DNA of 64,000 nucleotides from Serinicoccus sediminis (lineage in GTDB: Bacteria; Actinomycetota; Actinomycetes; Actinomycetales; Dermatophilaceae). Both the position numbers and the translations under genes were made by a program. Within the stretch, counting starts at the first letter, position 1. Every line of letters begins with the position of its first letter. This document shows, piece by piece, positions 1 through 64,000 of this stretch. The notes under the pieces were generated by a model. The model made no database searches. It saw nothing but the letters and a program-made list of their open reading frames with translations, and was not told where the DNA came from. The stretch covers positions 1-64,000 of the forward strand of contig NZ_SDVA01000015.1 in assembly GCF_004153545.1 (NCBI RefSeq). The letters run 5' to 3'.

Positions 1-77
1 CGAACCCGGAAGCTAAGCCTGACAGCGCCGATGGTACTGCACTGGGAACGGTGTGGGAGAGTAGGACACCGCCGGAC
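1..77 (+). rRNA. rrf: 5S ribosomal RNA, 3' portion
   Basis: The left edge begins inside a 5S rRNA. The stretch running from GAACCCGGAAGCTAAG through GGTACTGCACTGGGAACG to GGAGAGTAGGACACCGCC is the conserved 3' two thirds of actinobacterial 5S. The 5' part lies outside the window. The exact 3' end is placed at about 77 by similarity and may be off by a few bases. A strong terminator follows 10 bases later, so this is the end of an rRNA operon transcribed rightwards. Confidence 0.95.
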
Positions 78-86
78 CACCCTTCA

Positions 87-120
87 CGAAAGGGCCCGCC
101 CACCAGGGCGGGCCCTTTCG
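87..120 (+). terminator. Intrinsic terminator of the rRNA operon
   Basis: A perfect 14-bp stem (87-100 with 107-120) encloses the 6-base loop CACCAG. The arms start with CGAAAGGGC and end with GCCCTTTCG, so the pairing covers the A and T tracts. It lies directly after the 5S rRNA, as expected for the end of an rrn operon. Confidence 0.93.
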
Positions 121-185
121 CATGCCCTGGCCGTCTCGGGGGGAGTGTCCTGAGAGGATGAGGGGGTGGTCGAAGGAGGGGACTC

Positions 186-1946
186 ATGACGTCAGGCAGG
201 ATCATGCACGGTCGACGCGTCCGCCGGCTGGCGGCGCGGACGCTGCCGCGGCCCGTGGCCGAGCGGGTGCGAGAGGTGCGCCGCCGACGCCGGCAGGAGG
301 CGGCCGCGGCGCGCCGGGAGCAGCGTGCCGCCGAGCGGAGGGCGGAGCTGCTGGGGTCCGACCCGCAGGTGCGCGTGGTCGCAGCCGGCTCGTGGGAGGG
401 CCCGGGCCGGGTGGTCGAGGACTTCACGACCGACCAGGCGCGCGAGCACAACCTCAGGCTGGTCGCCGACGTGCTCGACGCGGAGGGGGTCGGCTACTTC
501 CTGGTGCGCGGACACTCGGCCCGACGGTGCGTGTTGGGCGTGCACCTGCGTGACCGGCCGACCGTGTTCCGGGCCATGCGGGCGCGTCACGACCTGAGCG
601 CCGTCTGGGCGGTGAAGCCGGGTCCGGGCGGATCGGCCGCCGTCGCCTGCGCCTACGTCGACGGCGGGCTGGACAGCGGGATCAAGTCCAGCATGGTCGT
701 CCGGTTCGCGGAGCCGCTGGTGTCCGGGTCGGGCCGGGTCGTCGGAGGTCTCGAGTTCGGCTGTGACGTCGAGTTCTGGCAGGACGCCGACGACCTGCTC
801 GCAAAGGAGAGCGGCCGCCGTCGGCTGGACGAGCTGCGGTCGCAGACACCGCACCGGGCGCTGTCAGGTGCGCTGGTGGCCCCGCGGACGAACCGGGTGT
901 CCGACGTGGTGCCGCGATCGGCGCAGCAGCCCGCCGTGGCCTGCGTCGGCGGACGTGAGGTCCCGACCTTTCAGCCGTTCACCTGGACGCTCACCGAGGA
1001 CGTGAGCTTCCCGGTCGACGTGGTCTACACCTGGGTCGACGGAGCCGACCCGACGCACGCGGCCCGACGTGCTCTCTACTCGGGAGAGGCGCCGGTGGGT
1101 CTGGGCGCCAACGCCTCGAGGTATGCGAGCCACGACGAGCTGCGCTACTCGCTGCGGTCACTGCACATGTACGCCCCGTTCGTCCGGCACGTCTACGTCG
1201 TCACCGACGACCAGGTGCCGTGGTGGCTCGACGCGGGGGCCGAGGGGATCACGGTGGTCGACCACCGCGACATCTTCGCCGACCCGTGTGCGCTGCCGAC
1301 CTTCAACTCGCACGCCATCGAGGCCCGTCTGCACCACATCCCGGGTCTGTCCGAGCACTATCTGTACCTCAACGACGACGTCTTCCTCGGGCGGATGCGC
1401 CGGGCTGAGGACTTCTTCCACGCCAACGGCATCGCCCAGGTGCCGTTCTCCTCCGCGCAGTTCGGCATCGGGGACACGGTCGAGGGTGAGGTGGCGCCGA
1501 ACTCAGCCGGGAAGAACGTCCGTGCCCTCTTCCAGTCCGACTTCGGGCGGGGGATCACGCACAAGTTCAAGCACGCCCCCCACCCGCAGATCCGGTCGGT
1601 CATGACCGAGCTCGAGGAGAGGTACGCCGAGGTGGTGGACCGCACGACTCGGACCCGGTTCCGCTCCACCGCCGACGTGGCCATGGCCGGCACCATGCAT
1701 CACCACTACGCGCTGTTCACCGGGCGTGCCGTGTCGGCACAGATCCGGATGCGATACGTCAACATCTCCTCCGCCGACGCCGTCCGTCGCCTCGAGCAGC
1801 TGGGTGCCTCGACCTCGGTCGACAGCTTCTGTCTCAACGACGTGGACACGCCGGAGGGATCGCGCGAGGAGGTCCAGGCGATGGTGGGCCGCTTCCTGGA
1901 GGAGCGCTTCCCGTTCCCGTCCCCGTGGGAGCGTCGACCGGTCTGA
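186..1946 (+). CDS. Stealth family protein (sugar-phosphate transferase)
   Basis: A 586-residue protein with all four Stealth conserved regions. CR1 lies near residue 275 (FPVDVVYTWVDGADP), CR2 at about 311-420 (the RYASHDELRYSLRS and YLYLNDDVFLG stretches), CR3 at about 437-480 (KNVRALFQSDFG, HAPHPQ) and CR4 at about 524-580 (YVNISSADAV to FCLNDVDTPE). The family transfers sugar-1-phosphate from a nucleotide sugar in cell-wall or capsular phosphoglycan synthesis, and relates to GlcNAc-1-phosphotransferase. The N-terminal 200 residues are basic then variable, as in other actinobacterial members. The ATG follows AAGGAGGGG with normal spacing. It stands alone just downstream of the rRNA operon, with no other wall-glycan gene next to it, so the acceptor is unknown. 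Confidence 0.88.
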   Translation: MTSGRIMHGRRVRRLAARTLPRPVAERVREVRRRRRQEAAAARREQRAAERRAELLGSDPQVRVVAAGSWEGPGRVVEDFTTDQAREHNLRLVADVLDAEGVGYFLVRGHSARRCVLGVHLRDRPTVFRAMRARHDLSAVWAVKPGPGGSAAVACAYVDGGLDSGIKSSMVVRFAEPLVSGSGRVVGGLEFGCDVEFWQDADDLLAKESGRRRLDELRSQTPHRALSGALVAPRTNRVSDVVPRSAQQPAVACVGGREVPTFQPFTWTLTEDVSFPVDVVYTWVDGADPTHAARRALYSGEAPVGLGANASRYASHDELRYSLRSLHMYAPFVRHVYVVTDDQVPWWLDAGAEGITVVDHRDIFADPCALPTFNSHAIEARLHHIPGLSEHYLYLNDDVFLGRMRRAEDFFHANGIAQVPFSSAQFGIGDTVEGEVAPNSAGKNVRALFQSDFGRGITHKFKHAPHPQIRSVMTELEERYAEVVDRTTRTRFRSTADVAMAGTMHHHYALFTGRAVSAQIRMRYVNISSADAVRRLEQLGASTSVDSFCLNDVDTPEGSREEVQAMVGRFLEERFPFPSPWERRPV

Positions 1947-1967
1947 CCGTCCTGCTGGGGACGACGT

Positions 1968-1983
1968 CTGCAAGTTCTTGCAG
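1968..1983. promoter_or_regulatory. Inverted-repeat operator upstream of the amylopullulanase
   Basis: A perfect 7-2-7 inverted repeat, CTGCAAG-TT-CTTGCAG, ends 7 bases before the proposed -35 box of the downstream glycosidase gene. The half-site resembles the CTTGCAG elements I recall upstream of Streptomyces amylase/maltose genes bound by LacI-type MalR regulators. The symmetry is seen; the regulator assignment is inference. Confidence 0.6.
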
Positions 1984-1990
1984 CTTCCTG

Positions 1991-2019: not shown

Positions 2020-2057
2020 GAGCAGCAACGTCCCTCAGCCCGACCCTGGAGACCGCA

Positions 2058-5000
2058 ATGACGCGTCCGCTTCTCGCTGCCTGCGTGGCCACCGCCCTGC
2101 TCGCCACCACCGGGGCCGCCACGCTCGCCGGCCAGACCCTCGCCCCCGCACCAGCCGCGGCGCAGGAGCCGCGCACGGTCACCCTGGTGGGGGACCTGCA
2201 GGACGAGCTGGGGTGCGACGCGGACTGGGCTCCCGGTTGCGACGCCACCCGCCTCGACCCGGTGGAGGGCAGCCCCGACGTCTACCGGTCCACCTTCGAG
2301 GTCCCCGCGGGGCGCTGGGAGTACAAGGTGGCTCTCGACGGTGGATGGGACGAGTCCCACCCGGAGGGCAACCTCGCGGTGGAGGTGCAGGGGCCGGCCG
2401 CGCTCGAGTTCTCCTTCGACGACACGACCGACGAGGTCGGGCTGGTGCCGCTGCTCGACCCGCCGGACGCCGCGCAGGACGAGGCCCTCGCCGGGGAGAG
2501 CCTGCGGGCCCCGGTGACCCGGGAGCAGTTCTACTTCGTCATGGCCGACCGGTTCGCCAACGGCGACCCGTCCAACGACACCGCCGGGCTCGACGGCGAC
2601 CGGCTGACCCACGGGTTCGACCCCACCGACAAGGGCTTCTACCACGGGGGCGACCTGGCCGGCATCATGGACCGCCTCGACTACATCGAGGGCCTCGGCA
2701 CCACCGCCATCTGGCTGACCCCGAGCTTCAAGAACCGCCCGGTGCAGGGCAGCGGTGCCGATGCCAGCGCCGGCTACCACGGCTACTGGATCACCGACTT
2801 CACCCAGATCGACCCGCACCTGGGGACCAACGAGGAGATGAAGGCGCTCATCGACGAGGCGCACTCCCGGGGGATGAAGGTCTACTTCGACATCATCACC
2901 AACCACACGGCCGACGTCATCGACTACGCCGAGGGGGAGTACGGCTACGTCGACAAGGCGACCGAGCCGTACCGGGACGCGTCGGGGGCCGCCTTCGACG
3001 ACCGCGACTACGTCGGCAAGCCCTTCCCGCTGCTCGACCCCGAGGTGTCCTTCCCCTACACGCCGGTGTTCCGGACCGAGGAGGACGCCGAGGTCAAGGT
3101 GCCGGCCTGGCTCAACGACCGCACGCTCTACCACAACCGCGGCGACTCCACCTTCGCCGGCGAGTCCAGCCTCTACGGCGACTTCATCGGGCTGGACGAC
3201 CTGTTCACCGAGAACCCCGAGGTGGTCGACGGGATGGTCGACATCTACTCCACCTGGGCCGACCTGGGGATCGACGGCTTCCGCATCGACACCGTCAAGC
3301 ACGTCAACCTGGAGTTCTGGCAGGAGTTCAGCCCGCGGGTGCTCGAGGCGGCGCGGACGGACAACGACGACTTCTTCATGTTCGGCGAGGTCTACGACTC
3401 CAACCCCGACTACCTGTCGGGCTTCACCACCGAGGGCGAGCTCCAGGCCGTCATCGACTTCGGCTTCCAGGCCCGCGCCATCGGGTTCGCCAAGGGGGGT
3501 GCCACGACCGACCTGCGCAGCTTCTACGCCCAGGACGACTACTACACCGACACCGACTCCAACGCCTACCAGCTGCCGACCTTCACCGGGAACCACGACA
3601 TGGGGCGGGCCGCGATGATGCTGGCCGGTGACCACTCGGGGCAGGACCTGCAGCGCCGGGTCGAGCTGACCAACGCCCTCATGTTCCTCACCCGTGGCCA
3701 ACCGGTCGTCTACTACGGCGACGAGCAGGGCTTCATCGGCAGCGGTGGCGACAAGGACGCCCGGCAGGACATGTTCGCCACCGAGGTCGAGCAGTACGCC
3801 ACCGAGCCGGTCATCGGCGCCCCGTCCGGGGCGCGGGACCGCTACGACACCGGCCACCCGTTGTACCGCCAGATCGCCACGCTGAGCGACCTGGTCGCCG
3901 CCAACCCGGCGCTCGCCGACGGGGCGCAGATCCACCGCTACGCCAGCGACGACGCGGGCATCTACGCCTTCTCCCGGATCGACGCCGACGAGCAGGTGGA
4001 GTACCTCGTCGTCGCGAACAACTCCGAGGAGCCCCGGCAGGCCGAGCTGTCGGCCTACGGGCCGCGCACGATGTTCCGGGCCATCTACGGAGACCGTGGC
4101 CGCATCCTCACCGACGCCGGGGGCCGGCTCACGGTCGACGTCGACCCGCTGTCGGTCGAGGTCTACCGGGCGCAGAGCCCCCTGCGACCCCGGCGCGAGG
4201 CGCCCGCGGTGACGTTGCGCACCCCGTCAGCCGGTGACGTGGTGGGCGGTCGTGCCGAGATCGCCGCGGCGGTCCCGGAGAACGTCTTCGCCCAGGTCAC
4301 CTTCGCCTACCGCCCTGTCGGCGTCTCCGACTGGACGGTGCTGGGCACCGACGACAACGCCCCCTACCGGGTCTTCCACGACGTCAGCGGTATGCCGCAG
4401 GGCACCCTGCTCGAGTACCGCGCCGTCCTGGAGGACCACTCCGGCAACGTGTCCGGGTCCTCCGGCTACGGCATCGTGGGGGAGCCGGGCACCGGAGGCG
4501 GTGGCGGCGGTGGGGTCGACCCCATCGGTCCCGTCGAGCAGCCGGACGCCGTCATCGTGCCCGGCAACCACAACGCGGCCATGGGCTGCGCCGGCGACTG
4601 GCAGCCCGACTGCGACGAGGCCCAGCTGTCGCTCGACGCCGCCGACGGCGTCTGGAAGCAGACCTTCGACGCCGGCACGATCCCGGCCGGCGACTACGAG
4701 TACAAGGCCGCGATCAACCGGTCCTGGGACGAGAACTACGGCGCCGGAGGCGTCCCGGGCGGGGGCAACATCGCCTACGCGGCGGACGGCGGACCGGTGA
4801 GCTTCTACTACGAGCACGCGCGCCACTACGTCACCTCGGACGCCGAGGGCCCGATCATCACCGCCCCCGGGTCGATGCAGAGCGAGCTCGGCTGCCCGGG
4901 CGACTGGTCGCCCGACTGCATGGCGCCGTGGCTCATCGATCCTGACGGGGACGGCACCTACACCTACGCGACCACGCAGATCCCGGCCGGGACCTACGAG

Positions 5001-7802: not shown

Positions 7803-10428
<2,626 letters not shown>

Positions 10429-13422: not shown

Positions 13423-15144
<1,722 letters not shown>

Positions 15145-44430: not shown

Positions 44431-45915
44431 GTGACGGCGGACCGCGCCACCCGCACCGAGACCACCACCGACCCTGATCCCGCCCGCTGGCGCATCCTGG
44501 CGGTGACCCTGGCGGTCGGCTTCATGTCGCTGCTGGACGTGACCATCGTCAACGTCGCCATCCCCTCGATGCGCGAGGGCCTGGACACCTCGGCGGCCTC
44601 GATCCAGTGGGTCGTGTCCGGGTATGCCCTCACCTTCGGCCTCATGCTCGTGACCGGGGGTCGGCTCGGGGACGCGTGGGGGCGGCGCCGCATCATGCTC
44701 GTGGGGCTGGCCGGGTTCGTGCTGGCCAGCGCGGCCTGCGGGCTGGCGCCGACCGCGGGGGTGCTCGTGGCCGCCCGCCTGGTGCAGGGGCTGTCGGCAG
44801 GTCTGCTGGCGCCGCAGAACACCGGGCTCATCCAGGACCTCTTCACCGGGGCCGAGCGGGGCCGGGCCTTCGGCCTGTTCGGCCTGGTGGTGTCGGTGGC
44901 GTCGGGCATCGGGCCGGTCCTCGGCGGCATCATCATCACCCTCGCCGGGGAGGACGGCGGCTGGCGCTGGGTCTTCCTCGTCAACGTCCCGATCGGCCTG
45001 GTGCTCCTCGTCGCCATCGCGCGCATCGTCCCCGACCTGCGCGGCTCGGACCAGGACCCGCGGCTGGACCTGGTCGGCGCCCTGCTGCTGGGGGTCGCCG
45101 TCATGTCCCTGCTGCTGCCCGTCGTGGCCCTGGAGTCGGGGGACACCTGGGCCCTGGGCCTGCTCGTCGGCGTCCCGGTCTTCGCCTGGGCCTTCGTGGC
45201 CTGGGAGCGGCGGCTGTCCCGCACCGGCGGGATGCCGCTGCTCGACGTCGGCCTGCTCCGGCGCACCCCCGGCTATGCCAACGGCATCGTCGTCGGCACG
45301 CTCTACTTCACCGGTTTCACCGGGGTCTTCCTCGTCCTGTCGATCTACCTGCAGGACGGTCTGGGCTACTCCACCCTCGTGACGGGGCTGCTGCTGACGC
45401 CCTTCGCGGTCGGCTCGGCCATCTCCTCCCCGTGGGCCGGGCGAGCCGTGACCCGGGTGGGTCGACCGCTGGTGGTGAGGGCGCTCCTGGTCATGATGAG
45501 CGGGCTCGTCTTGCTCGGGGTGCTCGTCGGCCCGGCGCAGGACACCCGGTGGCTGTGGCTGGCGCTGGCCGCGCCGCTGCTGCTCGCGGGGCTCGGCGGT
45601 GGCGCCGTGGTCTCGCCCAACTTCACCCTCACGCTGGCCAGGGTGCCGCAGCGGATGGGCGGCGCCGCCGGCGGAGCGCTGCAGACCGGGCAGCGCGTGG
45701 GGTCGGCCATCGGCGCAGCGGTGCTGGTCACGGCCTACCAGATGGGTGCCGGCGGCGGCGACGACGCGGCCGGCGGGCTCCGGGCCGCCCTCGGGGCGGC
45801 GCTCGTGCTGCTCCTCGCGGCCCTGGCCGCGGCGTTCTGGGACGGCCGGCGCCGGGCCGCCGCGCAGGACGCCGACGAGGAGTCCGACGAGGAGGAGAGC
45901 GGCGTCCCGGGCTAA
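44431..45915 (+). CDS. MFS multidrug exporter, DHA2 (EmrB/QacA) type
   Basis: A 494-residue transporter with 14 predicted membrane helices. Family motifs include FMSLLDVTIVNVAIPSM in helix 1, the motif A loop GGRLGDAWGRRR, motif C in SVASGIGPVLGG, and RWVFLVNVPIG. It would use the proton gradient to expel drugs or toxic metabolites. The acidic C-terminal tail (DADEESDEEESG) is cytoplasmic. The GTG start lacks a clear ribosome site and overlaps a 7-codon upstream frame. It ends 4 bases into the convergent decarboxylase gene. No dedicated regulator is adjacent. Confidence 0.92.
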   Translation: MTADRATRTETTTDPDPARWRILAVTLAVGFMSLLDVTIVNVAIPSMREGLDTSAASIQWVVSGYALTFGLMLVTGGRLGDAWGRRRIMLVGLAGFVLASAACGLAPTAGVLVAARLVQGLSAGLLAPQNTGLIQDLFTGAERGRAFGLFGLVVSVASGIGPVLGGIIITLAGEDGGWRWVFLVNVPIGLVLLVAIARIVPDLRGSDQDPRLDLVGALLLGVAVMSLLLPVVALESGDTWALGLLVGVPVFAWAFVAWERRLSRTGGMPLLDVGLLRRTPGYANGIVVGTLYFTGFTGVFLVLSIYLQDGLGYSTLVTGLLLTPFAVGSAISSPWAGRAVTRVGRPLVVRALLVMMSGLVLLGVLVGPAQDTRWLWLALAAPLLLAGLGGGAVVSPNFTLTLARVPQRMGGAAGGALQTGQRVGSAIGAAVLVTAYQMGAGGGDDAAGGLRAALGAALVLLLAALAAAFWDGRRRAAAQDADEESDEEESGVPG

Positions 45916-47342
45916 CCCTGGCCGGTCGGCGGGGCGGTGAACGCGGCCAGGAAGTCCACCAGCAGGCGCGCGCTCTGCTCGCGGGGCAGCGCCTCGACCA
46001 ACGCCAGCACGGCGGGCAGGTCGAGCTCTCCGCCCTCCCGCGCGGCCCGCGCGAGCGCCACCGGGTCGGGCACCTCGGCCGCTCCGGCTCCGTCGTCGGT
46101 GCGGGGAGCCGCGCGCCCGCGCACGTCGTCCGCCCCCGCGACGAGCGCCTCGGTCAGCTCGAGCAGCACGCCCAGGCTGGCCGGGGTCAGCGTCAGGTGG
46201 GTGGTGCGCGGCAGCGCCGTGCCGTCCTGCTGCGTCAGCGCGGGCTGGCCCTGCAGCACGAAACCGCGGGCGGCCACCGCCTGCGCCCACGCGTGCGGGT
46301 CGACCTGCTGGTGCGCGGGCACGCCGGGGTCGGTGCCGACGGCCAGCAGGGGCCCGGTCGGCTCGCCGACCACCCGCAGACCCGCGATGCCGTCGACGAC
46401 CTCGCGGACCTCGGCGGTGGCGCGGGCCACCCCGGCCGTGAGATCGGCATACCCCTGCGTCCCGAGGTGGGTGACCACGGCCCAGGCGGCGGCGAGCGAC
46501 ATGGCCGAGCGGGAGCCGAGCACGGTCGGGTTGACGACGGGGTACCCGGGCCAGTCGGTCAGCGCGTAGTAGCGGGCCCGGTCCAGCGCCGGGTCGGTGA
46601 CGAGCAGCACCGAGGCCCCCTTGGGGGCGTAGCCGAACTTGTGCAGGTCCGCCGAGATGCTCGTGACGCCCGGCACCGAGAGGTCCCACGGCTCCGCCCC
46701 CTCCCACCACGGGAGCACGAAGCCGCCGACGCACGCGTCGACGTGGCACGGGATGCCCCGCTCGGCCGCGGCGGCCGCGATCCCGGTCACCGGGTCGAGG
46801 ACGCCGTGGGGGTATGCCGGAGCGCTCGCGACCGCCAGCGCGGTCGCCTCGCCGAGGTGCTGCGCGAGGCGGTGCGCCGGCAGGGTGCCGGTGGCGGGGT
46901 CGACCGGCACCGGCACCACGTCGAGGCCCAGGTAGTGGGCGGCCTTGTGGAACGCGGCGTGCGCGGTCGTCGGCGCCACGACCCGCGGGGTGCGCGGGTC
47001 GCCGGGGTGGGTCTCGCGCCAGCGCTCCCGCGCCGCGAGGACGGCCAGCATGATGCTCTCGGTGCCGCCGGAGGTCACCGCCCCGCTGGTGGCGGGTCCG
47101 CCCCGCAGCACCTCGCGCGCGAAGGTCACGAGGTCGGCCTGCATGAGGGCCACCGAGGGGAAGGTGGTCGGGTCGAGCCCGTTGACCGCCTGCACCCGGG
47201 CGGCGGCCTCACCGGCGAGGGCGTCCAGCTCGGCCAGCCCGCTGTCGTAGACGTAGCTGAGGACGCGGCCACCGTGGGTGGGGGCGTCGTGGGCGCGGTA
47301 GGCGTCGAGCTGGGCCAGCACCTGCTCGCCGTTCGGGCTCAT
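45912..47342 (-). CDS. PLP-dependent decarboxylase/lyase (group II, sphingosine-phosphate-lyase-like)
   Basis: A 476-residue fold-type I PLP enzyme. TSGGTESIMLA (90-100) binds the phosphate, HVDAC (D202) contacts the pyridine nitrogen and K235 in SADLHKFGYAPKGAS forms the Schiff base. The pattern PTTAHAAFHKAAHYLG is typical of bacterial homologues of sphingosine-1-phosphate lyase and related amino-acid decarboxylases. The substrate is unknown. Its ATG overlaps the stop of the upstream GPH symporter by 4 bases, so import and decarboxylation are co-expressed. Confidence 0.83.
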   Translation of the reverse strand: MSPNGEQVLAQLDAYRAHDAPTHGGRVLSYVYDSGLAELDALAGEAAARVQAVNGLDPTTFPSVALMQADLVTFAREVLRGGPATSGAVTSGGTESIMLAVLAARERWRETHPGDPRTPRVVAPTTAHAAFHKAAHYLGLDVVPVPVDPATGTLPAHRLAQHLGEATALAVASAPAYPHGVLDPVTGIAAAAAERGIPCHVDACVGGFVLPWWEGAEPWDLSVPGVTSISADLHKFGYAPKGASVLLVTDPALDRARYYALTDWPGYPVVNPTVLGSRSAMSLAAAWAVVTHLGTQGYADLTAGVARATAEVREVVDGIAGLRVVGEPTGPLLAVGTDPGVPAHQQVDPHAWAQAVAARGFVLQGQPALTQQDGTALPRTTHLTLTPASLGVLLELTEALVAGADDVRGRAAPRTDDGAGAAEVPDPVALARAAREGGELDLPAVLALVEALPREQSARLLVDFLAAFTAPPTGQG

Positions 47343-48685
47343 GGGGGACCTCCTGGGATCGGGTCGGGCACCGCGCCCGCGCTGACGGGGTCGGTGTAGC
47401 GACGGAGGACGAGCAGGCTCGCGGCCACCAGCAGGGCGGGGACCACGGAGAACGCCAGGACGATGGCGACGCCGGCCGCGGCGGGCTGGGCCAGCTGCTC
47501 GCCGGCGGTGCTGGAACGGAAGCCGGTGGCGCCGAGCAGGAGGAGCAGCACGACCGGGCCGAGGGCCAGGCCGCTGGTCTCACCGGCGGTCCACAGGCCG
47601 CTCATCGCGCCACCGCGCGCGCGTCCGGCCGCGGTGACGACGTCGGGCAGCATCGCCAGCGGGAAGAGCTGCATCCCGGCGTAGGCGACGCCGGCCACGC
47701 CCACCACCGGGTAGACCCACCACCCGGGCAGCCACAGCAGCCCCACGAGCGCGAGGGAGGCTGCTGCGAAGATGGCCGACGCCAGCCCGAGCCCGGCCGG
47801 TTTGCCACGGGACGCGGCATACCGCGCCCACAGCGGCATGACCAGCAGGGCGGGCGCCACCAGCGCGGCGAAGAGCAGCGTCAGCGCGCCCTCGTCGCCC
47901 AGGGTGTACGCCGCGACGTACTGCGCCGCGGCGAGCATGACGCCCGTGGCCAGGGCCTGCAGCACGAAGACCGACAGCAGCACGCGGTATGCCGTCACCT
48001 CGCGCCAGACCACGAGGCCCTCGCGGTAGCCGGCGACGGCACCGGGTGACGTGGAGGGGGTGCGCCGCAGGTGAGGGCGCGTGGCGACGACGGTGGCGAG
48101 CATCCCGGCCAGGAGCAGGGCCGCGATGCCGAGCGCCATGACGAGGTAGCCGGGCCGGCCGCCCCCGGCGGCGTCCCGCAGGGCGGGGCCGCCCGCGCCG
48201 ACGAGCAGGATCGCCAGCGCCAGCACCGCGATGCGCCACGCCATGACGCGGGTGCGCTCGTCGTAGCCCTGGGTGAGGTCGGCGGGCAGCGCGATGTAGG
48301 GCACCTGGAAGCAGGAGAAGGAGGTGGTGGCGAGCACGAAGAACACCAGCACCCACAGCCCGGCGGCCGCGGGGCCCAGGCCGTCGGGGGTGGCGAACAT
48401 CCCGACGAAGCCCACGGGCAGGGTCAGCGCGCCGGCCAGCATGAGCCGTCGACGCCCGACGTGCGAGGCGGCGTCCCGGTCGCTGACGGCACCCACCAGC
48501 GGGTCGATGAGCACGTCCCAGACCTTGGGCAGCACGACGACGACCGTCGCCAGCAGGGCCGGCACCGCGAGCGTGTCGGTGAGGTAGTAGGCGAGCACCA
48601 GGCCTGGGAGGGTGCTGAAGCCGCCGGTGCCCACGCTGCCCGCGGCATACCCCGCCACGGCCGAGCGCGGCAGGCGAGGGTGCAT
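47339..48685 (-). CDS. MFS transporter of the GPH (sugar:cation symporter) family
   Basis: A 448-residue carrier with 12 hydrophobic helices. The MFS_2/GPH features are the N-terminal FSTLPGLVLAYYLTDTL, VWDVLIDPLVGAVSDR with the conserved Asp pair, and FQVPYIALPADLTQGYDERTR. Characterised members import melibiose, xylosides or glucuronides with sodium or protons. The ATG at 48685 has TACGCT seven bases upstream and no Shine-Dalgarno, suggesting leaderless expression. It is the first gene of a two-gene operon with the PLP decarboxylase. Confidence 0.87.
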   Translation of the reverse strand: MHPRLPRSAVAGYAAGSVGTGGFSTLPGLVLAYYLTDTLAVPALLATVVVVLPKVWDVLIDPLVGAVSDRDAASHVGRRRLMLAGALTLPVGFVGMFATPDGLGPAAAGLWVLVFFVLATTSFSCFQVPYIALPADLTQGYDERTRVMAWRIAVLALAILLVGAGGPALRDAAGGGRPGYLVMALGIAALLLAGMLATVVATRPHLRRTPSTSPGAVAGYREGLVVWREVTAYRVLLSVFVLQALATGVMLAAAQYVAAYTLGDEGALTLLFAALVAPALLVMPLWARYAASRGKPAGLGLASAIFAAASLALVGLLWLPGWWVYPVVGVAGVAYAGMQLFPLAMLPDVVTAAGRARGGAMSGLWTAGETSGLALGPVVLLLLLGATGFRSSTAGEQLAQPAAAGVAIVLAFSVVPALLVAASLLVLRRYTDPVSAGAVPDPIPGGPP

Positions 48686-50050: not shown

Positions 50051-50107
50051 CGTCCGACGGTATGCCCTCGGCCGGGGCCCCGCAGGTCGCACCGGTAGCG
50101 TGCAGCC

Positions 50108-50875
50108 ATGGCACGGATGGACGGGACCTTTCTGCTCACGGGACTGCGCGGGACGGTGGCGCCCAAGGTGGCGGCCCGGCTGTCCGAGCTGGGGGGCGAC
50201 GTCGTCGGCTGGGACCGGTCGGCCGTGCCCCCCGACGACGTGGCCGCGGGGGAGGCCTTCCTCGCCGACGTCCGGCCGGCCGGCATCTTCCACCTCGGGA
50301 TGGGGGCGGAGGCGTGGGCCGGCCGGCTGGCGGCGTACGCCCGGGACCACGAGCTGCCCTTCGTGGTGACCAGCTCGGTCTCGGTCTTCGGGGACGCCCC
50401 CGGCGACCCCGACGGCCCGTTCCGTCCCGCGGACACCCCGACCGCCCGGGACGACTACGGCAGCTACAAGGCGCGGTGCGAGCAGGCGGTGCGCGAGGCA
50501 TACCCGGAGGCGGTCGTCGCCCGCATCGGCTGGCAGGCCGACCCCGACGGGGTGGGCAACAACATGGTGGCCCAGCTCGCCGCCCAGGCCGACTCCGCCG
50601 GTGGCGTCGTCCGGGCCAGCCGGGGGTGGCGACCCGCCACGTCGTGGATGGAGGACACGGCGGTCGCGCTGGTGGACCTGGCGGGGTCGGGGCGCTCGGG
50701 CACCGTCCACCTGGACGCCAACGCCGCGGACGCGTGGACCTTCCCGGACGTGGTCCGGCACGTCGCCCGCGTCACCGGGCACGCCTGGACCGTCGAGGAG
50801 CACGACGAGCTGGAGCACGACTCCCGCCTCGTGGGTGACGAGGACCTCATCCGCCCGCTGTCCGCGCGGTCCTGA
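50108..50875 (+). CDS. NAD-dependent epimerase/dehydratase family protein
   Basis: A 255-residue extended-SDR-like protein. The N-terminal cofactor segment is FLLTGLRGTVAPKVAARL (less glycine-rich than the usual GxxGxxG), followed by VVTSSVSVFGD (catalytic Ser/Thr) and YGSYKARCEQAVRE, which supplies the YxxxK pair. It is shorter than most sugar epimerases. The function is not assignable. TAGCGT lies six bases before the ATG with no Shine-Dalgarno, so the gene is probably leaderless. Confidence 0.8.
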   Translation: MARMDGTFLLTGLRGTVAPKVAARLSELGGDVVGWDRSAVPPDDVAAGEAFLADVRPAGIFHLGMGAEAWAGRLAAYARDHELPFVVTSSVSVFGDAPGDPDGPFRPADTPTARDDYGSYKARCEQAVREAYPEAVVARIGWQADPDGVGNNMVAQLAAQADSAGGVVRASRGWRPATSWMEDTAVALVDLAGSGRSGTVHLDANAADAWTFPDVVRHVARVTGHAWTVEEHDELEHDSRLVGDEDLIRPLSARS

Positions 50876-52614: not shown

Positions 52615-53703
52615 TCAGTCCGGGCCGGACGGGCCCTCCTCCGCCCGCGGGTCGACCGGCTGCGTCCCGCCCGCGCCGGCGAGCCGCCGGTAGACCTCGA
52701 CCAGGTGCGCGGCCGCCGCGGTGCTGTCGAAGCGGGCGGCGATCCGCGCGGCGCCCCGGCGGGCCGCGGCATACCTCTCCGGGTCGGTGCGCAGGGCGCT
52801 GATGGTGGCCCCGAAGGCCTCCTCGCCGCAGCGCACGACGTCCTCGCCGAAGGTGTCGTCGTACTCCCGCAGGTCGCGGACGACCACCGGCAGACCCGCG
52901 GCAGCGGCCTCCAGGACGCACACCGGGTGGTTCTCCTGCTCGGCGGGCAGGCAGAAGGCGTCGGCCGCCCGCAGGTATGCCGTCACCTCCTCGCGCGGGA
53001 CGGCGCCGGTGAAGGTGAGGTTCGCGGGCGCGGTCTCCATCAGCCGGCGCATGGCACCGTGCTCGGCCCCGAGGCGGCCGAACGGGATGCCGCCGAGCCA
53101 CACGAAGCGGACCTCGGGAAGCTCGCGCGCCAGCCGGACGACGACGTCGACCCGCTTGCGCGGCTGCACCTGGCCGACCCCGACCACGAGGAAGGTGCCA
53201 GGGTCCACCCCCCGGTGCCGGCGCGCCGCCACCCGCCCCGCCGCGTCGGTGGCGAAGACCCTCCTGTCGACCGTGTTGGGCACGGTCTCGACCCGCTCGG
53301 GCGGCACCCCCAGCTCGTCCACCAGCGTCCGCGCCACCGCGTCCGAGACGGCCAGGACCCGGTCCGCCCGGCCGTAGAACCACCGCATGTACCGCCGGGC
53401 GAGGGGACGCCACGCCCGCGCCCACCGCACGGAGCCCACGAGCGAGTCCGGGACGACGTGCGCCGACACCACCGTCGGCGTGCGCGGGTCGAGGAGCTTG
53501 GGCCACACCGCCCAGCCCAGGGTGTGCAGGTGGTAGACGTCGCAGTCCACCCGCCGGCCGTAGACCCCCCTCACCACGTCCACGTCGCCACGCCGCTCGA
53601 GGGCCTGCGCCATCTCGAGGTAGGCGGAGTGCACGCCGTGGCCCTGCACGCTGATGTCGCTCTCGCTGGCCATGTTGACCACGAGCGGCCCCGTCCGGCT
53701 CAT
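52615..53703 (-). CDS. GT4-family glycosyltransferase
   Basis: A 362-residue GT-B glycosyltransferase. The N-terminal acceptor domain has GHGVHSAYLEMAQAL; the C-terminal donor domain begins near 185 with FLVVGVGQVQPRKRVDVVVRLA and has the EX7E-like motif in LPAEQENHPVCVLEAAAAGLPVV. It transfers a sugar from an activated donor to an unknown acceptor. It is the last gene of a three-gene run with a VTT membrane protein (10-base gap) and another GT4 enzyme, which suggests glycolipid or envelope glycan synthesis. Confidence 0.88.
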   Translation of the reverse strand: MSRTGPLVVNMASESDISVQGHGVHSAYLEMAQALERRGDVDVVRGVYGRRVDCDVYHLHTLGWAVWPKLLDPRTPTVVSAHVVPDSLVGSVRWARAWRPLARRYMRWFYGRADRVLAVSDAVARTLVDELGVPPERVETVPNTVDRRVFATDAAGRVAARRHRGVDPGTFLVVGVGQVQPRKRVDVVVRLARELPEVRFVWLGGIPFGRLGAEHGAMRRLMETAPANLTFTGAVPREEVTAYLRAADAFCLPAEQENHPVCVLEAAAAGLPVVVRDLREYDDTFGEDVVRCGEEAFGATISALRTDPERYAAARRGAARIAARFDSTAAAAHLVEVYRRLAGAGGTQPVDPRAEEGPSGPD

Positions 53704-54427: not shown

Positions 54428-55623
54428 GCGGCCATCCCGGCGCGCTGCGGCCCCGCGGCCTGGTCGTAGGCAGCGCACACCGCGCTCGCGAAGGCCTGCC
54501 GGCCGAGGCCGGCGGCGGTCCGGACGGCCCGCCGACCCCACCGCCGCCGCAGGTCCGGCTCCTGCAGCAGCCGGGTCAGCGACCGGGTGAACTCCTCCGG
54601 CGTGGTGCAGCGCTGGCCGTTGCGGCCGGCGACCACGACACCGTCGAGGGCGGCGTCGTCGCGGCAGACCACCGGCACCCCGCTGGCCAGGGCCTCCAGG
54701 AAGGTCAGCCCCTGGGTCTCGGTGCGCGAGGCGGAGACGAAGACGTCCGCCAGCCGGTAGAGCTCCGGGACCCGGGACGGGTCGACCGCCCCGACGAAGC
54801 GCACCCGGGAGCCCATCCCCAGCCGGTCGACCTGCCGTCGCAGGGCGCCCGCCTGGGGCCCGTCACCGGCGACGACGAGCTGCCACGGACCCGCCACCCC
54901 GGCGAGCAGGTCGAGGACCTCGGTGACGTTCTTCTCGACGGCCAGGCGCCCCAGGCTCAGGACGACCGGGACGCCCGGGGCCAGTCCCAGCGCCGCCGAG
55001 AGCTCGCGCGACGGCGCGCCCGGCGCGAACCGGGCCAGGTCGACACCGGTGGGGACGACGGCGATCGGCGGGCGGACGGCATACCCCTCCAGCAGCCGGC
55101 GGATCTTCTCGGTGGGGGCGATGACGAGGTCGGTCCGGTCGAGGGTGCGCCGCGCGAAGGAGGCGCACAGGGCCCGTCCCAGCCGCTCGTGCGGGCAGAA
55201 GTAGTGGGTGTAGTCGGCGTACAGCGTGTGGTAGGTGTGCACGTGGGGGACCGAGAGGCGGTGGGCGAGGCGCCGGGCCCACCAGAAGGCGACGAACTCG
55301 GTGTGCGAGTGCAGGACCGCGGGCCGCCACCGGACCAGCTCGGCCAGCAGGTCGCCGTCGACCGGCCGACCCAGCCGGGCGTGCGGGTAGATGTGGCTGG
55401 CGTCCAGGGAGGGCAGCCGGTAGACCCCGCCGTCGAAGGTGGTGCGGCGGGTGGGCCCGACGGTCAGCACGCGCACCTCGTGCCCGGCCTCCAGCAGCCC
55501 TCGGCGCAGCTCGTCGACCGAGCTGACCACCCCGTTCACCGTGGGGCGGTAGGAGTCGGTGAGCAGCAGGACCCGGCGTCGGCCGGGCTGCGACCGCGGC
55601 GTGAGCAAGGGGTGCACGGGCAT
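54424..55623 (-). CDS. GT4 glycosyltransferase, diacylglycerol glucosyltransferase-like
   Basis: A 399-residue GT-B enzyme. The N-terminal LLTDSYRPTVNGVVSSVDELRR and HSHTEFVAFWWARR with HTYHTLYADYTHY match 1,2-diacylglycerol 3-glucosyltransferases and phosphatidylinositol mannosyltransferase-like enzymes. The donor domain has VVLSLGRLAVEKNVTEVLDLL and the EX7E motif at ETQGLTFLEALASGVPVV. It would glycosylate a membrane lipid at the inner face. The ATG at 55623 overlaps a GGCATACC octamer. It heads the GT-VTT-GT operon and is divergent from a DUF664 gene. Confidence 0.87.
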   Translation of the reverse strand: MPVHPLLTPRSQPGRRRVLLLTDSYRPTVNGVVSSVDELRRGLLEAGHEVRVLTVGPTRRTTFDGGVYRLPSLDASHIYPHARLGRPVDGDLLAELVRWRPAVLHSHTEFVAFWWARRLAHRLSVPHVHTYHTLYADYTHYFCPHERLGRALCASFARRTLDRTDLVIAPTEKIRRLLEGYAVRPPIAVVPTGVDLARFAPGAPSRELSAALGLAPGVPVVLSLGRLAVEKNVTEVLDLLAGVAGPWQLVVAGDGPQAGALRRQVDRLGMGSRVRFVGAVDPSRVPELYRLADVFVSASRTETQGLTFLEALASGVPVVCRDDAALDGVVVAGRNGQRCTTPEEFTRSLTRLLQEPDLRRRWGRRAVRTAAGLGRQAFASAVCAAYDQAAGPQRAGMAA

Positions 55624-55667
55624 ACCGCCAGCGTGGCCGCCCGCGGGCCGAGGCCACCAGGGGGCGG

Positions 55668-55743: not shown

Positions 55744-56253
55744 ATGGACGCCTTCCAGGACCTGCTCGTCGACGGCTTCTCCCGGGTGCAGGAGGGGGTC
55801 GGTGCCGTCCTCGACGGACTGTCGCCGGACCAGCTGCGGTGGCGGCCCGACGACGCGGCGAACCCCGTGGGCTGGCTCGTCTGGCACCTGCTCCGCCAGC
55901 AGGACGCCCAGCTCGCGCAGCTCGCGGGTCTGGGGCAGGCCTGGGACCAGGGCTGGCGCGAACGCCTCGACCTGCCCTACGCCCCGGACGCCATGGGCTA
56001 CGGGCAGGACGCCGCGGAGGTCGGCCGGTTCGAGCTGGGCGACCCGCAGCTGCTCGTGGGGTATGCCGGCGCCGTCCACGAGCTCACCCGCCGGCTGGTC
56101 GAGGGGCTGGACGCGCAGGGGCTGGAGCGGGTGCTGGACGACTCCTACGATCCCCCGGTGACCGTCGGGGTGCGGGTGTGCTCGGTGCTCGAGGACGCGC
56201 TCAAGCACCTGGGGCAGGCGGAGTACGTCAAGGGCCTGGCCCAGCGCCGGTGA
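55744..56253 (+). CDS. DinB/DUF664 family protein
   Basis: A 169-residue four-helix-bundle protein of the DinB/DUF664 group. The conserved WLVWHLLRQQDAQLAQLAG stretch near 44-62 and the C-terminal EDALKHLGQAEYVKGL supply histidines that usually bind a metal. Related actinobacterial proteins are thiol (mycothiol)-dependent transferases or isomerases, but the exact reaction is unknown. TAGCGT lies seven bases before the ATG with no Shine-Dalgarno, so the mRNA is probably leaderless. Confidence 0.85.
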   Translation: MDAFQDLLVDGFSRVQEGVGAVLDGLSPDQLRWRPDDAANPVGWLVWHLLRQQDAQLAQLAGLGQAWDQGWRERLDLPYAPDAMGYGQDAAEVGRFELGDPQLLVGYAGAVHELTRRLVEGLDAQGLERVLDDSYDPPVTVGVRVCSVLEDALKHLGQAEYVKGLAQRR

Positions 56254-60419: not shown

Positions 60420-61313
60420 GTGGCGGGTCGGTTGGAGCGTCCGGTCGTCGTCGGGGTGGCAGGCCGGGGGGAGGGTGACCCCGCGCTGGAGTGGGCAGCC
60501 CGCACGGCCGCACGGACCGGGACCGGTCTGGTCGTCGTGCACGCCAGCGAGCCGGAGGTGCTGGCCGCGCGGATGGCCGGGGGCGAGGGGGTCGCCGTCT
60601 CCGCCGTCCTCGAGCTCGAGGAGGAGACCGTCGCGGAGCTGCGCGGGTATGTCGACGCGCTCGCCGAGCGGCTCGGTGTGAGCGCCCAGCTGGACACCTC
60701 CCGCGGGTCGCCGGTGGCGGCGGTCCTGGCGCACCAGGACGACGCCGCGCTGCTGGTGGTGGGCACCGGCCGCCGGAGCGGGGTCGAGGAGTTCCTGCTC
60801 GGCAGCACCTCGCTGGGCGTGGCCGCGCACGCCCGCCGCCCGGTCGCGGTGGTCAACCCCGGCGTCGACGTCGACGCCCTCACCCACGGCCAGATCGGCC
60901 TCGGGGTGGACGGCAGCGACGACAGTGCCCGGGCTGCCCGCGCGGCCCTGGCGCTCGCCGACCTCACGGGGTCCTCGGTGACCGCGCTGACCACCTGGTT
61001 CCTCGAGGTCGTCGACGGCTACGTGGTGACGGAGCCGGACAGCCCGGAGTGGGCCGCGGTGGAGCGGCGCCACGCCCAGCGCATCGTGCGGGCGCTGCAG
61101 CCGGCGGTCGAGGCATACCCCCAGGTGCCGGTGGACTGGGAGGTGCGTCGCGGCCCGGTCGTGCCGACCCTGCTGGAGGCGGCGAAGGGGTGGGACGCCC
61201 TGGTGGTGGGCAGCCGCGGTCGCGGCGCCGTCCGGGGGCGGCTGCTGGGGTCGGTGAGCCAGCGCCTCATGCGCGCGGCGCCCTGCCCGGTGATCGTGTC
61301 CCGGGCCGCCTAG
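60420..61313 (+). CDS. Tandem-domain universal stress protein
   Basis: A protein of about 297 residues with two Usp domains. Each begins with a VVVGV or GLGVDGS strand and ends with a glycine-rich ATP-binding loop: GTGRRSGVEEFLLGSTS in the first and GSRGRGAVRGRLLGSVSQRL in the second. Two-domain Usps are common in actinobacteria and respond to hypoxia or stationary phase. Several in-frame GTGs occur at the start (60405, 60411, 60417, 60420). The one 8 bases after GGAGG is used here, but 60417 is equally possible. Confidence 0.9.
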   Translation: MAGRLERPVVVGVAGRGEGDPALEWAARTAARTGTGLVVVHASEPEVLAARMAGGEGVAVSAVLELEEETVAELRGYVDALAERLGVSAQLDTSRGSPVAAVLAHQDDAALLVVGTGRRSGVEEFLLGSTSLGVAAHARRPVAVVNPGVDVDALTHGQIGLGVDGSDDSARAARAALALADLTGSSVTALTTWFLEVVDGYVVTEPDSPEWAAVERRHAQRIVRALQPAVEAYPQVPVDWEVRRGPVVPTLLEAAKGWDALVVGSRGRGAVRGRLLGSVSQRLMRAAPCPVIVSRAA

Positions 61314-61403: not shown

Positions 61404-62990
61404 TCAGAGGCCGCCGGTGGTCGCCTCGGCGGCGCGCTCGGCGATGGTGGACCCGGCGCCCTCGTAGAGGTTGACCACGACGTCGGCCCCCCGGGCCTGC
61501 AGGTCCTCGACCTCGTCGTCGTACTGCGCCACCACCGCGATGACGCCGTCGTAGTCGCTGGCGGCGAGCTGCTCGAGAGCGATCCGGTTGGCGCCGTGGA
61601 AGGGCATGGCGAGCACGACGATCTCCACCTGCCGGGTGGACTCGAGCCGGCTCCAGAAGTCGCCGTCCGCGGCATCGGCCTCGACGACGGTCAGCCCTTG
61701 CTCGCGCAGCTTGAGGACCCGGTTGGGCAGGTTCTCCACCCCCAGGACCGCTAGCCCGTAGACCTCGGCGAGCTCGGTGTAGGCGCTCCGGCCGATCCGG
61801 CCCATCCCCATGATGACCGCCCGCGCGTCCCCGAACGAGATGGGCAGCTCGTGGGGGTGCACGTCGGTCGGGGGGTGCATCGGCATGACCTGCCGGGCCC
61901 AGCGCAGGATGGCGTCCGACTTCTCGTTGACCAGGGTGGCCGCGACGAAGCTGGCGGCGACCGCGACGGACATGACGACGAGCCACTCCTCGTCGAGCAT
62001 GGCGCTCGCGACGGCGACCGAGGTGACGATGAGCCCGAACTCGGAGTAGTTGCCGAGCAGCACACCGGCCTTGACCGACGTGCGGCGGCGGAGCTTCTGC
62101 CGGTCCAGGATGAAGACGTAGAGCGCGATCTGGGCGGGCAGGAGCAGCAGGAGCAGCAGGCCCAGCACGGCCGAGGACGCCGTGGGCGTCCCGATGAAGC
62201 CGATGGACAGGAAGAAGCCGATGAGGAGCAGGTCCTTGAGCAGGAAGAGGATGTGCGAGAGGTCTCCCGCTGCCTTGTGCCCGGCCAGCAGCATGCCGAT
62301 GACCAGCGCGCCCAGGTCGCCCTTGAGACCGACGGCGTCGAACGCGGCATACCCCGGCCCGAGCGCCATCGCCAGGCCGAAGAGCGCCTGCATCTCGCCG
62401 TGCGGGATGCGGTCCCACAGCCACCGGCCGAGCCAGGCGACCGGCACCAGCGCCAGCACGACCGGGATCGCCCAGATGCTGGGGATGCGGCCGCCCGAGA
62501 CGGTCATGAAGATCACGGCGGCGAGGTCCTGCAGGACGAGGATGCCGATGGCGACCCGTCCGTAGAAGGACTGCAGCTCGGAGTGCTCCTCCAGGACCTT
62601 GACCACGAAGACCGTGGAGGAGAACGACAGCGCGAACCCGACCAGGGCGAGGGTCTGCAGGTCCAGGCCCCGCACCAGCGGGTAGCCGAGCAGCCCGACG
62701 ACCCACAGGAAGCCCGTGCCCACGGCGACCGAGAGGGCCATGTGGCCGACCGTCGTGACCCACACCTCGCGGGACACCAGGCTGCGCACGTTGAGCTTCA
62801 GCCCGATCCCGAAGAGGAGCAGCGTGACGCCCAGGTCGGCCATGAAGTCCAGGTACGGCAGCTCCTCCAGGCCCATCCAGTTGAGGGCGAACCCGGCCAG
62901 GAGGAACCCGAGCAGGGCCGGCAGACGCAGCGTGGTGGCGAGCAGGCCGGCGGCGAAGGTCGCGGCGATGAAGATCGCTGCGTCGCTCAT
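61404..62990 (-). CDS. CPA2-family monovalent cation:proton antiporter with TrkA-N domain
   Basis: A 528-residue membrane protein. About 12-13 hydrophobic helices (to about 370) include LLLFGIGLKLNVRSL, FALSFSSTVFVVKVLEE and the acidic VLQDLAAVIFM core of Na/K:H antiporters. A cytoplasmic TrkA-N (RCK) domain follows at about 390-510, with its nucleotide motif VIMGMGRIGRSAY. This resembles KefB/KefC-type potassium/proton antiporters gated by nucleotide. GAGGAG precedes the ATG at 62990. A hairpin separates it from the amidotransferase gene upstream. Confidence 0.9.
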   Translation of the reverse strand: MSDAAIFIAATFAAGLLATTLRLPALLGFLLAGFALNWMGLEELPYLDFMADLGVTLLLFGIGLKLNVRSLVSREVWVTTVGHMALSVAVGTGFLWVVGLLGYPLVRGLDLQTLALVGFALSFSSTVFVVKVLEEHSELQSFYGRVAIGILVLQDLAAVIFMTVSGGRIPSIWAIPVVLALVPVAWLGRWLWDRIPHGEMQALFGLAMALGPGYAAFDAVGLKGDLGALVIGMLLAGHKAAGDLSHILFLLKDLLLIGFFLSIGFIGTPTASSAVLGLLLLLLLPAQIALYVFILDRQKLRRRTSVKAGVLLGNYSEFGLIVTSVAVASAMLDEEWLVVMSVAVAASFVAATLVNEKSDAILRWARQVMPMHPPTDVHPHELPISFGDARAVIMGMGRIGRSAYTELAEVYGLAVLGVENLPNRVLKLREQGLTVVEADAADGDFWSRLESTRQVEIVVLAMPFHGANRIALEQLAASDYDGVIAVVAQYDDEVEDLQARGADVVVNLYEGAGSTIAERAAEATTGGL

Positions 62991-63022
62991 GGCTGGCTCC
63001 TCGAGGCGCGGCCCCACGGGTG

Positions 63023-63052
63023 GTGGGCCCTAGTCTCCCATGCCGGGCCCAC
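63023..63052 (-). terminator. Hairpin between the amidotransferase and antiporter genes
   Basis: A perfect 8-bp stem (GTGGGCCC, 63023-63030, with 63045-63052) and 14-base loop, lying 40 bases after the amidotransferase stop on the minus strand. No T tract follows, so the terminator assignment is tentative. Confidence 0.4.
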
Positions 63053-63091
63053 GGGCACCGCGCGGCGGAGGCGTGCGCCGCGCGCCGTCGG

Positions 63092-63805
63092 TCAGGCCGG
63101 TCGGCTCTCCGGGGCGGCGGCCAGCAGCCCGAACCGGCGGATCAGCTGCTCCCAGGCGGGGTGCAGCTCCTCCTGCCGCTGCCGCAGCACCCGCAGGGTG
63201 CTCTCCTCCGCCTCCGGCCGCTGGCCCGTGGTCCAGCCGCGGACGAGCTCGTCGTCGACCTCGGGATGGAACTGCACACCCCATGCGAGCGGGCCGTAGC
63301 GGGCCGCCTGCACGGTCCCGTCGGTGTCCTCGGCGAGGAGGGTCGCACCGGGCGGCAGGGCGGTGACCGCGTCCGAGTTCCACTGCAGCACCTCGGTGCC
63401 CGGTAGCAGGGCGCTCGTCAGGGGGTCGGCCACCCCGTCGGGGGTGGGGCGCCACGCCCGCAGGCCCATGGTCTGCCCGCCCGGCTGCCGGGCCACCTGG
63501 CCGCCGAGCGCCAGGGCGGCCAGCTGGTGACCGAGGCAGACGCCGAGGAAGGGACGGCCCGCGGAGACGGTGCCGGCGATGAGGGCCTTGGTGGGCAGCA
63601 ACCAGCGGTATGCCTGGTCGTCCCAGGCGTCCATGGAGCCCCCGAGCACGACGAGCGCGGCGTGGTCCCCGAGGTCGGCAGGGACGGCATACCCCTCGTG
63701 CGCGGGCAGCACGTCGCACGCCAGACCGGCGCTCTCCAGCCAGGGCAGCAGCAGGCCTGCGGGTGCCTTCTCCTCGTGCTGGACGACCAGGGCCCGTGCG
63801 GTCAT
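63092..63805 (-). CDS. Class I glutamine amidotransferase-like protein
   Basis: A 237-residue stand-alone GATase1 domain. The triad is visible: C90 in FLGVCLGHQLAA, H180 and E182 in GVQFHPEVD. LGGSMDAWDD matches the GMP-synthase-like/YfeJ group. These proteins release ammonia or hydrolyse gamma-glutamyl compounds; the partner is unknown. TAGCCT lies six bases before the ATG and there is no Shine-Dalgarno, so the gene is probably leaderless. Confidence 0.88.
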   Translation of the reverse strand: MTARALVVQHEEKAPAGLLLPWLESAGLACDVLPAHEGYAVPADLGDHAALVVLGGSMDAWDDQAYRWLLPTKALIAGTVSAGRPFLGVCLGHQLAALALGGQVARQPGGQTMGLRAWRPTPDGVADPLTSALLPGTEVLQWNSDAVTALPPGATLLAEDTDGTVQAARYGPLAWGVQFHPEVDDELVRGWTTGQRPEAEESTLRVLRQRQEELHPAWEQLIRRFGLLAAAPESRPA

Positions 63806-63838
63806 GGGCTCAGGCTAGACCCGCCCGCCCCGACCGCC

Positions 63839-64000
63839 TCACGCGCCGGTGTCGGGCAGGTCACGGGCGGCGAATCCCGCGCTGTGCACGTCCTCGCCCT
63901 CCTCCGGCTCGGCGGCCCAGTAGGGACCCTCGTCGTCGTCGCGGTCCACGGAGTGCGGCTGCAGCTCGCCGCTGGCGATCTGCTCGGCCCAGTGGCAGGC
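63839..64000 (-). CDS. C-terminal fragment of an uncharacterised protein, cut by the window edge
   Basis: An open frame runs in from the right edge for 53 residues to a TGA at 63839-63841. The visible part reads CHWAEQIASGELQPHS, then an acidic stretch (DRDDDEGPYWAAEPEEGED) and ends RDLPDTGA. The N-terminus and any domain lie outside the window. No family is recognised. Confidence 0.55.
   Translation of the reverse strand, partial: ACHWAEQIASGELQPHSVDRDDDEGPYWAAEPEEGEDVHSAGFAARDLPDTGA

Follow-up and report, generated by a model that had tools for sequence, protein, structure and literature searches.

What keeps a single eight-base word abundant on both strands of a bacterial genome, whatever genes it falls in? 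The question is raised by the first 64,000 nucleotides of contig NZ_SDVA01000015.1 from Serinicoccus sediminis (assembly GCF_004153545.1), a 64 kb stretch that is referred to throughout as the window. Within it, the octamer GGTATGCC and its reverse complement GGCATACC recur far more often than base composition would predict. An earlier reading of the window (the original prediction) concluded that selection or a mutational process works at the level of the DNA, irrespective of gene or strand, and it named a Chi-like recombination signal, a chromosome-architecture motif, a drifting methyltransferase site and an uptake-like signal as candidates. Enrichment, conservation and strand balance now strongly support that conclusion. 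Among the candidates, we favour an uptake-sequence-like self-recognition tag that exists in several dialects, with a probability of about one half, and it fits best because relatives carry mutually exclusive words in place of this one.

Exact counting in the window yields 13 copies of GGTATGCC and 17 of GGCATACC, the same totals that had been read by hand. Of the 30 coordinates reported at that time, 28 are exact and two were off by one. Markov models of orders 1-3 predict 0.74-1.2 copies in the window with both strands counted; the expectation climbs to 12.7-30.5 at orders 4-6 because the sub-words of the motif then enter the model. The motif differs from its own reverse complement and is therefore not palindromic. 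The window contains no site for the palindrome GGTATACC and 3 for the palindrome GGCATGCC (0 and 6 when both strands are counted). The copies, each located by exact count in the window, are listed below, with conservation in close relatives where it was recorded.

4389..4396, + strand, motif copy
8033..8040, - strand, motif copy
13780..13787, - strand, motif copy
19118..19125, + strand, motif copy, intact in 7/7 alignable close relatives (of 8)
21582..21589, - strand, motif copy, intact in 8/8 close relatives
22709..22716, + strand, motif copy between predicted genes, intact in 7/8 close relatives
23421..23428, + strand, motif copy
33301..33308, - strand, motif copy between predicted genes
34848..34855, - strand, motif copy (originally placed at 34849)
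36415..36422, + strand, motif copy
37908..37915, - strand, motif copy
40676..40683, + strand, motif copy (originally placed at 40677)
42239..42246, - strand, motif copy
44621..44628, + strand, motif copy, intact in 8/8 close relatives
46446..46453, - strand, motif copy
46811..46818, + strand, motif copy
47816..47823, - strand, motif copy
47986..47993, + strand, motif copy
48644..48651, - strand, motif copy between predicted genes
50059..50066, + strand, motif copy between predicted genes
50497..50504, - strand, motif copy
52768..52775, - strand, motif copy
52974..52981, + strand, motif copy
55078..55085, - strand, motif copy
55619..55626, - strand, motif copy
56060..56067, + strand, motif copy
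61112..61119, - strand, motif copy
62346..62353, - strand, motif copy
63607..63614, + strand, motif copy
63686..63693, - strand, motif copy

The excess extends over the whole genome of the window strain (G000; 3.547 Mb in 97 contigs, the window being contig 11), which holds 698 + 665 = 1,363 copies against 10 + 8 = 18 of the reversed pattern. The genome-wide count proposed at the outset is thus far above background. Further statistics were drawn from 364 kb of G000, made up of 15 stretches of 20 kb plus the window, and from 420 kb of a single-contig genome of the same genus (G007). The motif is the top-ranked octamer of the G000 sample under an order-3 model. By genome-wide counts, it occurs once per ~2.6 kb in G000 and once per ~1.7 kb in G007. 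Among the 119 copies in the G000 sample, the next base is G in 82%, followed by T in 45% or C in 33%, which gives an extended consensus of gGTATGCCGt. The first G is relaxed, as A/C/T-GTATGCC stands ~5-16x above synonymous shuffles.

Genes were called with our own GC-frame gene finder, which is approximate and independent of curated annotation, and ~88% of the G000 sample was assigned as coding. As a codon-aware null, coding sequences were shuffled synonymously 100 times with the protein sequence and pooled codon usage held fixed. In the 364 kb of G000, 95 coding copies were observed against a shuffled mean of 4.85 and a maximum of 11, an excess of ~20-fold, and the reversed control appeared once against 2.5. 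The same procedure gave 228 observed versus 8.5 for G007 and 0 versus 1.8 for G022, another member of the genus. The counts are therefore not explained by a codon model. The original prediction also held that the motif forces the codon pairs TAT-GCC or GCA-TAC in genes; this applies to 67 of the 95 coding copies, while the other 28 lie in three further frames. Altogether, five of the six frames are used in G000, sense and antisense, and the sixth holds 2 of 228 copies in G007. The expected concentration of TAT in the motif is evident, with 35 of the 119 TAT codons in the 364 kb lying in sense copies.

The copies show little regard for position or strand. Their location along genes is uniform (Kolmogorov-Smirnov p 0.82 and 0.47), the fraction of genes with no copy fits a Poisson distribution, and spacing is near Poisson with coefficients of variation of 1.10 and 0.97. 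A mild intergenic excess is present, comprising 24/119 copies in G000 and 54/282 in G007 (p 0.011 and 0.007). The check for strand and replichore bias was made in G007, where replichores were set by eye from the sign of the GC skew over 21 sampled stretches, one of which had a sign opposite to its neighbours. No bias was found, with 142 copies on the leading strand and 140 on the lagging strand (p 0.95).

Individual sites are also conserved in place. An anchor gene was located in 24/31 genomes of the genus, G000 included, and the window was aligned to the matching stretches of 20 of the other 23. In the eight nearest relatives, 13-23 alignable window sites are intact versus 2.7-8.8 expected from the identity of the flanks. 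For example, G007 retains 18 of 21 alignable sites at 80.6% flank identity (3.7 expected) and G029 retains 23 of 28 (7.2 expected). In the twelve more distant members, 0-12 sites could be aligned and most were changed, leaving 0-3 intact versus 0-1.0 expected. Codons bear the same mark: summed over the eight relatives, the rare codons TAT, GCA and ATA were unchanged in 120/154 comparisons inside the motif and in 147/571 outside, these comparisons sharing ancestry and so not being independent.

How the sites come and go may be glimpsed from their variants. At 60 aligned positions where at least one of nine genomes has the motif, 81 one-base differences were counted, the commonest being T-to-G at position 5 (29) and position 3 (17) and T-to-C at position 5 (11). 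Many of these differences appear to swap rare codons for preferred ones. Two neighbours of the motif are depleted two- to four-fold, as judged by observed over expected counts of 8/22 for GGCATGCC and 15/36 for GGTACGCC in G000, and 8/32 and 15/51 in G007, with the palindrome GGCATGCC counted once per strand. All one-off words taken together are near expectation (212 observed vs 191 in G000 and 304 vs 260 in G007). Since GGTACGCC and GGCATGCC are depleted, transitions from these neighbours are probably a common origin of motif sites.

The distribution of the motif was surveyed in 186 genomes of the family and 22 genomes from other families of the same order; the former include 31 members of the window's genus. 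Pedococcus sp. 5OH_020 shows the same four counts (246, 202, 57 and 46) as family member G171, so the family, Dermatophilaceae in GTDB, probably includes Pedococcus, a genus that NCBI assigns to Intrasporangiaceae. By a hand tally, GGTATGCC reaches at least 100 copies in 119/186 family genomes and falls below that in 67. Not all of the 119 stand out from their own control: in a few, such as G066 with 264 copies versus 201, the excess is unclear. Members of the window's genus carry 285 to 2,180 copies, except for 38 in G022. The 22 genomes from other families hold 3-111 copies, mostly within a few-fold of controls, and the highest of them is G045 with 111 versus 24.

Samples of genomes with low counts were screened by k-mers for other words, and three of these were then counted genome-wide. 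The first, GCGAAGGGGG, is present at 342-1318 copies in 19/19 genomes of two genera (16/16 of g52 and 3/3 of g61) versus 2-28 in the other 167, and its consensus is GRCGAAGGGGGW. The second, GGTAGCGGC, was counted within the genus and reaches 625 copies in G022, the remaining 30 members having 22-99. The third, CGATGCGGTG, reaches 529 copies in G139 against 15-112 in the remaining 185 genomes, including 75 in its congener G138. Each of the three is balanced between orientations. One dialect spans 11-12 bp, with degenerate ends and five consecutive G. In all 21 genomes with an alternative word, GGTATGCC is reduced to 6-40 copies (6-40 in g52 and g61, 38 in G022 and 20 in G139). G022 matches its genus in GC content yet has no GGTATGCC excess. 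Mutually exclusive words of this kind are a pattern of dialects, with at least four words in the family and one switch inside the genus. The comparison of related genera suggested by the original prediction shows the motif in many members of the family, with other words in some low-count lineages.

Several side observations accompany the survey. Weaker candidate words were seen in samples of 40-200 kb, namely GNCGTACGNCG in G146, GTACGGCG in G140 and GGATGCCG in G031 and G201, and some of these may reflect codon context. Words based on GTACG are enriched in G146 and G140 and are possibly further dialects or, again, codon context. G022 has a second repeated word, CACCCCCAAC(CAG), at 10-12 copies in ~200 kb versus <1 expected. 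Within one genus, the count of GGTATGCC ranges from 11 in G140 and 347 in G142 to 1694 in G141, a draft of 340 contigs. No clear word emerged in the samples of G184, G206, G150 and G094 or in those of genera g74, g62 and g41 (80, 40 and 40 kb), and the remaining low-count genera have so far no confirmed word of their own. In an 18-kb alignment of G000 with G022, five G000 motif sites face altered words; the aligned stretch lacks any GGTAGCGGC and therefore has no bearing on a possible origin of new words at former sites.

If gGTATGCCGt is an uptake tag, a surface DNA receptor would prefer DNA bearing the word. Such DNA would then be taken up, presumably by the route of Tad/Flp pilus and ComEA/ComEC known from Micrococcus luteus, and recombined into the chromosome, so that copies would spread by transformation and persist. 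Should the preference of the receptor shift in a lineage, the old word would decay and a new one accumulate, giving rise to mutually exclusive dialects. The case for this reading is built on the behaviour of the word, which is orientation-free, conserved, hyper-abundant and dialect-switching, and not on covariation with genes. Among the originally listed candidates, the uptake-like signal fares best through the mutually exclusive words; what we infer is the receptor, its preference in uptake, spread by transformation and the role of Tad/Flp pili.

Precedents for such a tag are found at some distance from this family. In the Neisseriaceae, the DNA uptake sequence (DUS) is present in thousands of copies, often within genes, is family-specific, and has dialects that replace each other among relatives around a core of 5'-CTG-3' (PMC3630211). 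The likeness to the present case lies in an abundant intragenic word with mutually replacing dialects, and the difference in the word itself and in hosts that are high-GC Gram-positive bacteria. An uptake tag would be expected to be scarcer on plasmids, prophages and islands than on the chromosome, a comparison that has been used in Neisseriaceae (PMC7371117). The DUS 10-mer is GCCGTCTGAA, and the 12-mer form of AT-DUS contains the letters ATGCCGT that are shared with our motif, an overlap that is probably due to chance. The uptake signal sequence (USS) of the Pasteurellaceae is likewise a short word, and its ~1300 copies in H. influenzae (PMC5217627) are similar in number to those of G000; the word and the phylum are different. 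Closer in kinship is M. luteus, an actinobacterium whose transformation depends on Flp pili and which possesses both ComEA and ComEC (PMC6370729). No uptake tag is known to us in M. luteus. A term search of the main text of PMC4322843, on M. luteus, did not find "uptake sequence" or "sequence-specific".

The competence genes themselves are widespread. The ComEC profile is matched over its cut-off in 180/186 family genomes, and a ComEA-type HhH at E <=0.001 in 179/186, of which 97 exceed the curated cut-off. The six assemblies with no ComEC match also lack a ComEA match, as does G080; all seven are 58-95% complete and divided into 30-760 contigs, and the six with neither match carry 204-561 motif copies. 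Open frames for ComEA and ComEC adjoin in G007, G109, G147 and G139, a comparison of open frames only that covers three of the words. ComEA of G000 and G007 combines SLBB and HhH domains. The ComEA frame of G022 is open, and its ComEC frame is cut off by a contig end.

A number of points weigh against an uptake tag. Being nearly universal, ComEC and ComEA do not discriminate motif-rich from motif-poor genomes; their presence does not follow motif abundance, and genera g74, g62 and g41 have both with no clear word. The consensus gGTATGCCGt lacks the neisserial CTG core. A type IVa pilus of the neisserial kind is scarcely represented, as PilT is over cut-off in only 2/186 genomes with fragments just under it in G035, in a search that did not include ComP itself. 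Inverted pairs, which are common at DUS and USS terminators, show no clear excess: in G000 there are 4 consecutive pairs less than 80 bp apart in 364 kb versus ~3 expected from the mean gap, all in one arrangement, and in G007 there are 10 in 420 kb, 6 of them arranged likewise and 4 the other way. Finally, the comEC gene of the window strain is interrupted. Its similarity to the G007 protein breaks off at residue 425, a stop follows, and the ComEC profile matches twice in G000. The break is situated in contig 46 at ~68.5-72.5 kb (L228 ~2030-6001) within a conserved stretch. Beyond it, GC content is 0.675 versus 0.781 before, and the DNA encodes a DUF2971 protein and two open frames with no Pfam match. 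These ~4 kb are possibly an island inserted in the competence gene; they carry one motif copy, which bears neither way on whether recently acquired mobile DNA is poor in the motif. If the break is real and not an assembly fault, the window strain may have lost transformation, and its motifs would then be recent relics.

Two of these subjects merit a further remark. Weaker matches to the PilT profile occur in 183/186 genomes and probably represent secretion ATPases of the Tad or other types. The strong matches are at G142:C2:219671-220690 and G203:C175:140-1150, both over cut-off, with the fragments of G035 on C233 and C236; they are possibly acquired type IV pili. As for inverted pairs, H. influenzae terminators often consist of two inverted USS copies (PMC5217627), in contrast to the small number of such pairs here, and the pairs seen here are too few for terminator hairpins to be the main role of the motif, a candidate that was rejected. 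Two pairs of the form GGTATGCC...GGCATACC do lie between predicted genes on contig 8 of G000 (stretch L095, 4817-4840 and 16703-16737), with starts 16 and 27 bp apart, and would form terminator-like hairpins. A similar terminator-like hairpin (gcccctgacc...ggtcaggggc) carries the motif in its loop in G000 (L089:138) as well as in G007 (L118:4367).

Of the alternatives, the one that survives best is a binding site for a nucleoid-associated or chromosome-organising protein, which would require numerous sites available at even intervals, whose specificity would switch between lineages and whose sites would be kept by purifying selection. Orientation-neutral, near-Poisson sites that are spread genome-wide and conserved in place would suit such a protein, and a change in its binding specificity would likewise yield dialects. 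Nevertheless, we consider it unlikely. Copy numbers from 285 to 2,180 within one genus (38 in G022), and below 100 in 67/186 genomes, are odd for an architectural need, and apart from the mild intergenic excess no positional preference is apparent. The polar, KOPS-type version put forward in the original prediction is disfavoured because strand polarity is lacking.

Next is a word driven by epigenetic marking or repair, in which a methyltransferase or mismatch processing would bias repair and so create and keep sites. The model is HIP1 of cyanobacteria, a hyper-abundant octamer that is replaced in some genomes by alternate words with matching methyltransferases and whose mechanism of creation is itself still a model (PMC4390886). 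The depletion of the transition neighbours GGCATGCC and GGTACGCC fits this scheme. However, HIPs are palindromic and tied to methyltransferases, and the present motif is not a palindrome. The 11-12 bp dialect with its five-G run and degenerate ends is also unlike usual methyltransferase sites. Furthermore, the C-to-T drift from GGTACGCC that the original prediction envisaged accounts for only 11/81 one-base differences, with T-to-G dominant, and is insufficient alone; we rejected it as a sole cause, as mutation by itself leaves conservation in place unexplained. On these grounds the HIP1-like explanation is rather improbable.

More doubtful still is a recombination signal of the Chi kind, recognised by a helicase-nuclease. 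Chi sites resemble the motif in being short, hyper-abundant octamers, and the conservation of the motif also speaks for such a signal, but they differ in strand polarity, and the motif has no leading or lagging bias. RecC (PF04257) is found in 89/186 genomes, among them none of g42 or g55, 1/11 of g67 and 1/9 of g72, all of which are motif-rich; in contrast, it is present in 15/16 of g52 and 3/3 of g61, genera without GGTATGCC. As RecC does not covary with the motif, a Chi site of the RecBCD type is unlikely, and with polarity also lacking this form of the Chi candidate was rejected. Although codon context does mildly enrich some other words in several genomes, an origin as a side effect of bias in codons, dipeptides or mutation is very hard to credit given the excess over synonymous shuffling in G000 and G007, the use of five of six frames in G000 along with intergenic copies, the threefold higher retention of rare codons within the motif than elsewhere, and a congener of the same GC content (G022) with no excess.

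Returning to the uptake tag, literature searches on uptake sequences in Actinobacteria or Intrasporangiaceae, or on over-represented words, gave nothing on point among the matches listed, which covered few subscription papers, and a search on the octamer gave no title on a repeated bacterial word among the matches listed. In a motif survey (PMC5217627), a term search of the main text found neither the octamer nor "Actinobacteria". The family may harbour the first uptake-sequence system in Gram-positive bacteria, with exclusive words family-wide, a receptor within the Tad/Flp-ComEA-ComEC machinery and switches of preference; we advance this broader proposal tentatively, at a little under even odds.

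To our knowledge, self-tagging of a genome for uptake is documented in only a few Gram-negative families. If the proposal is true, changes in receptor preference, including one among congeners in the case of G022, would raise sudden barriers to gene exchange, and each switch would leave a genome rewritten with the new word. If the reader is instead not an uptake receptor, some other factor would act at ~1,400 sites, which are conserved where alignments were made. The series of dialects, including the switch within the genus, offers a natural set for finding the reader protein by covariation. It would also make testable the evolution of uptake specificity, the isolation of species by it, and the selection of sequences by Flp pili.

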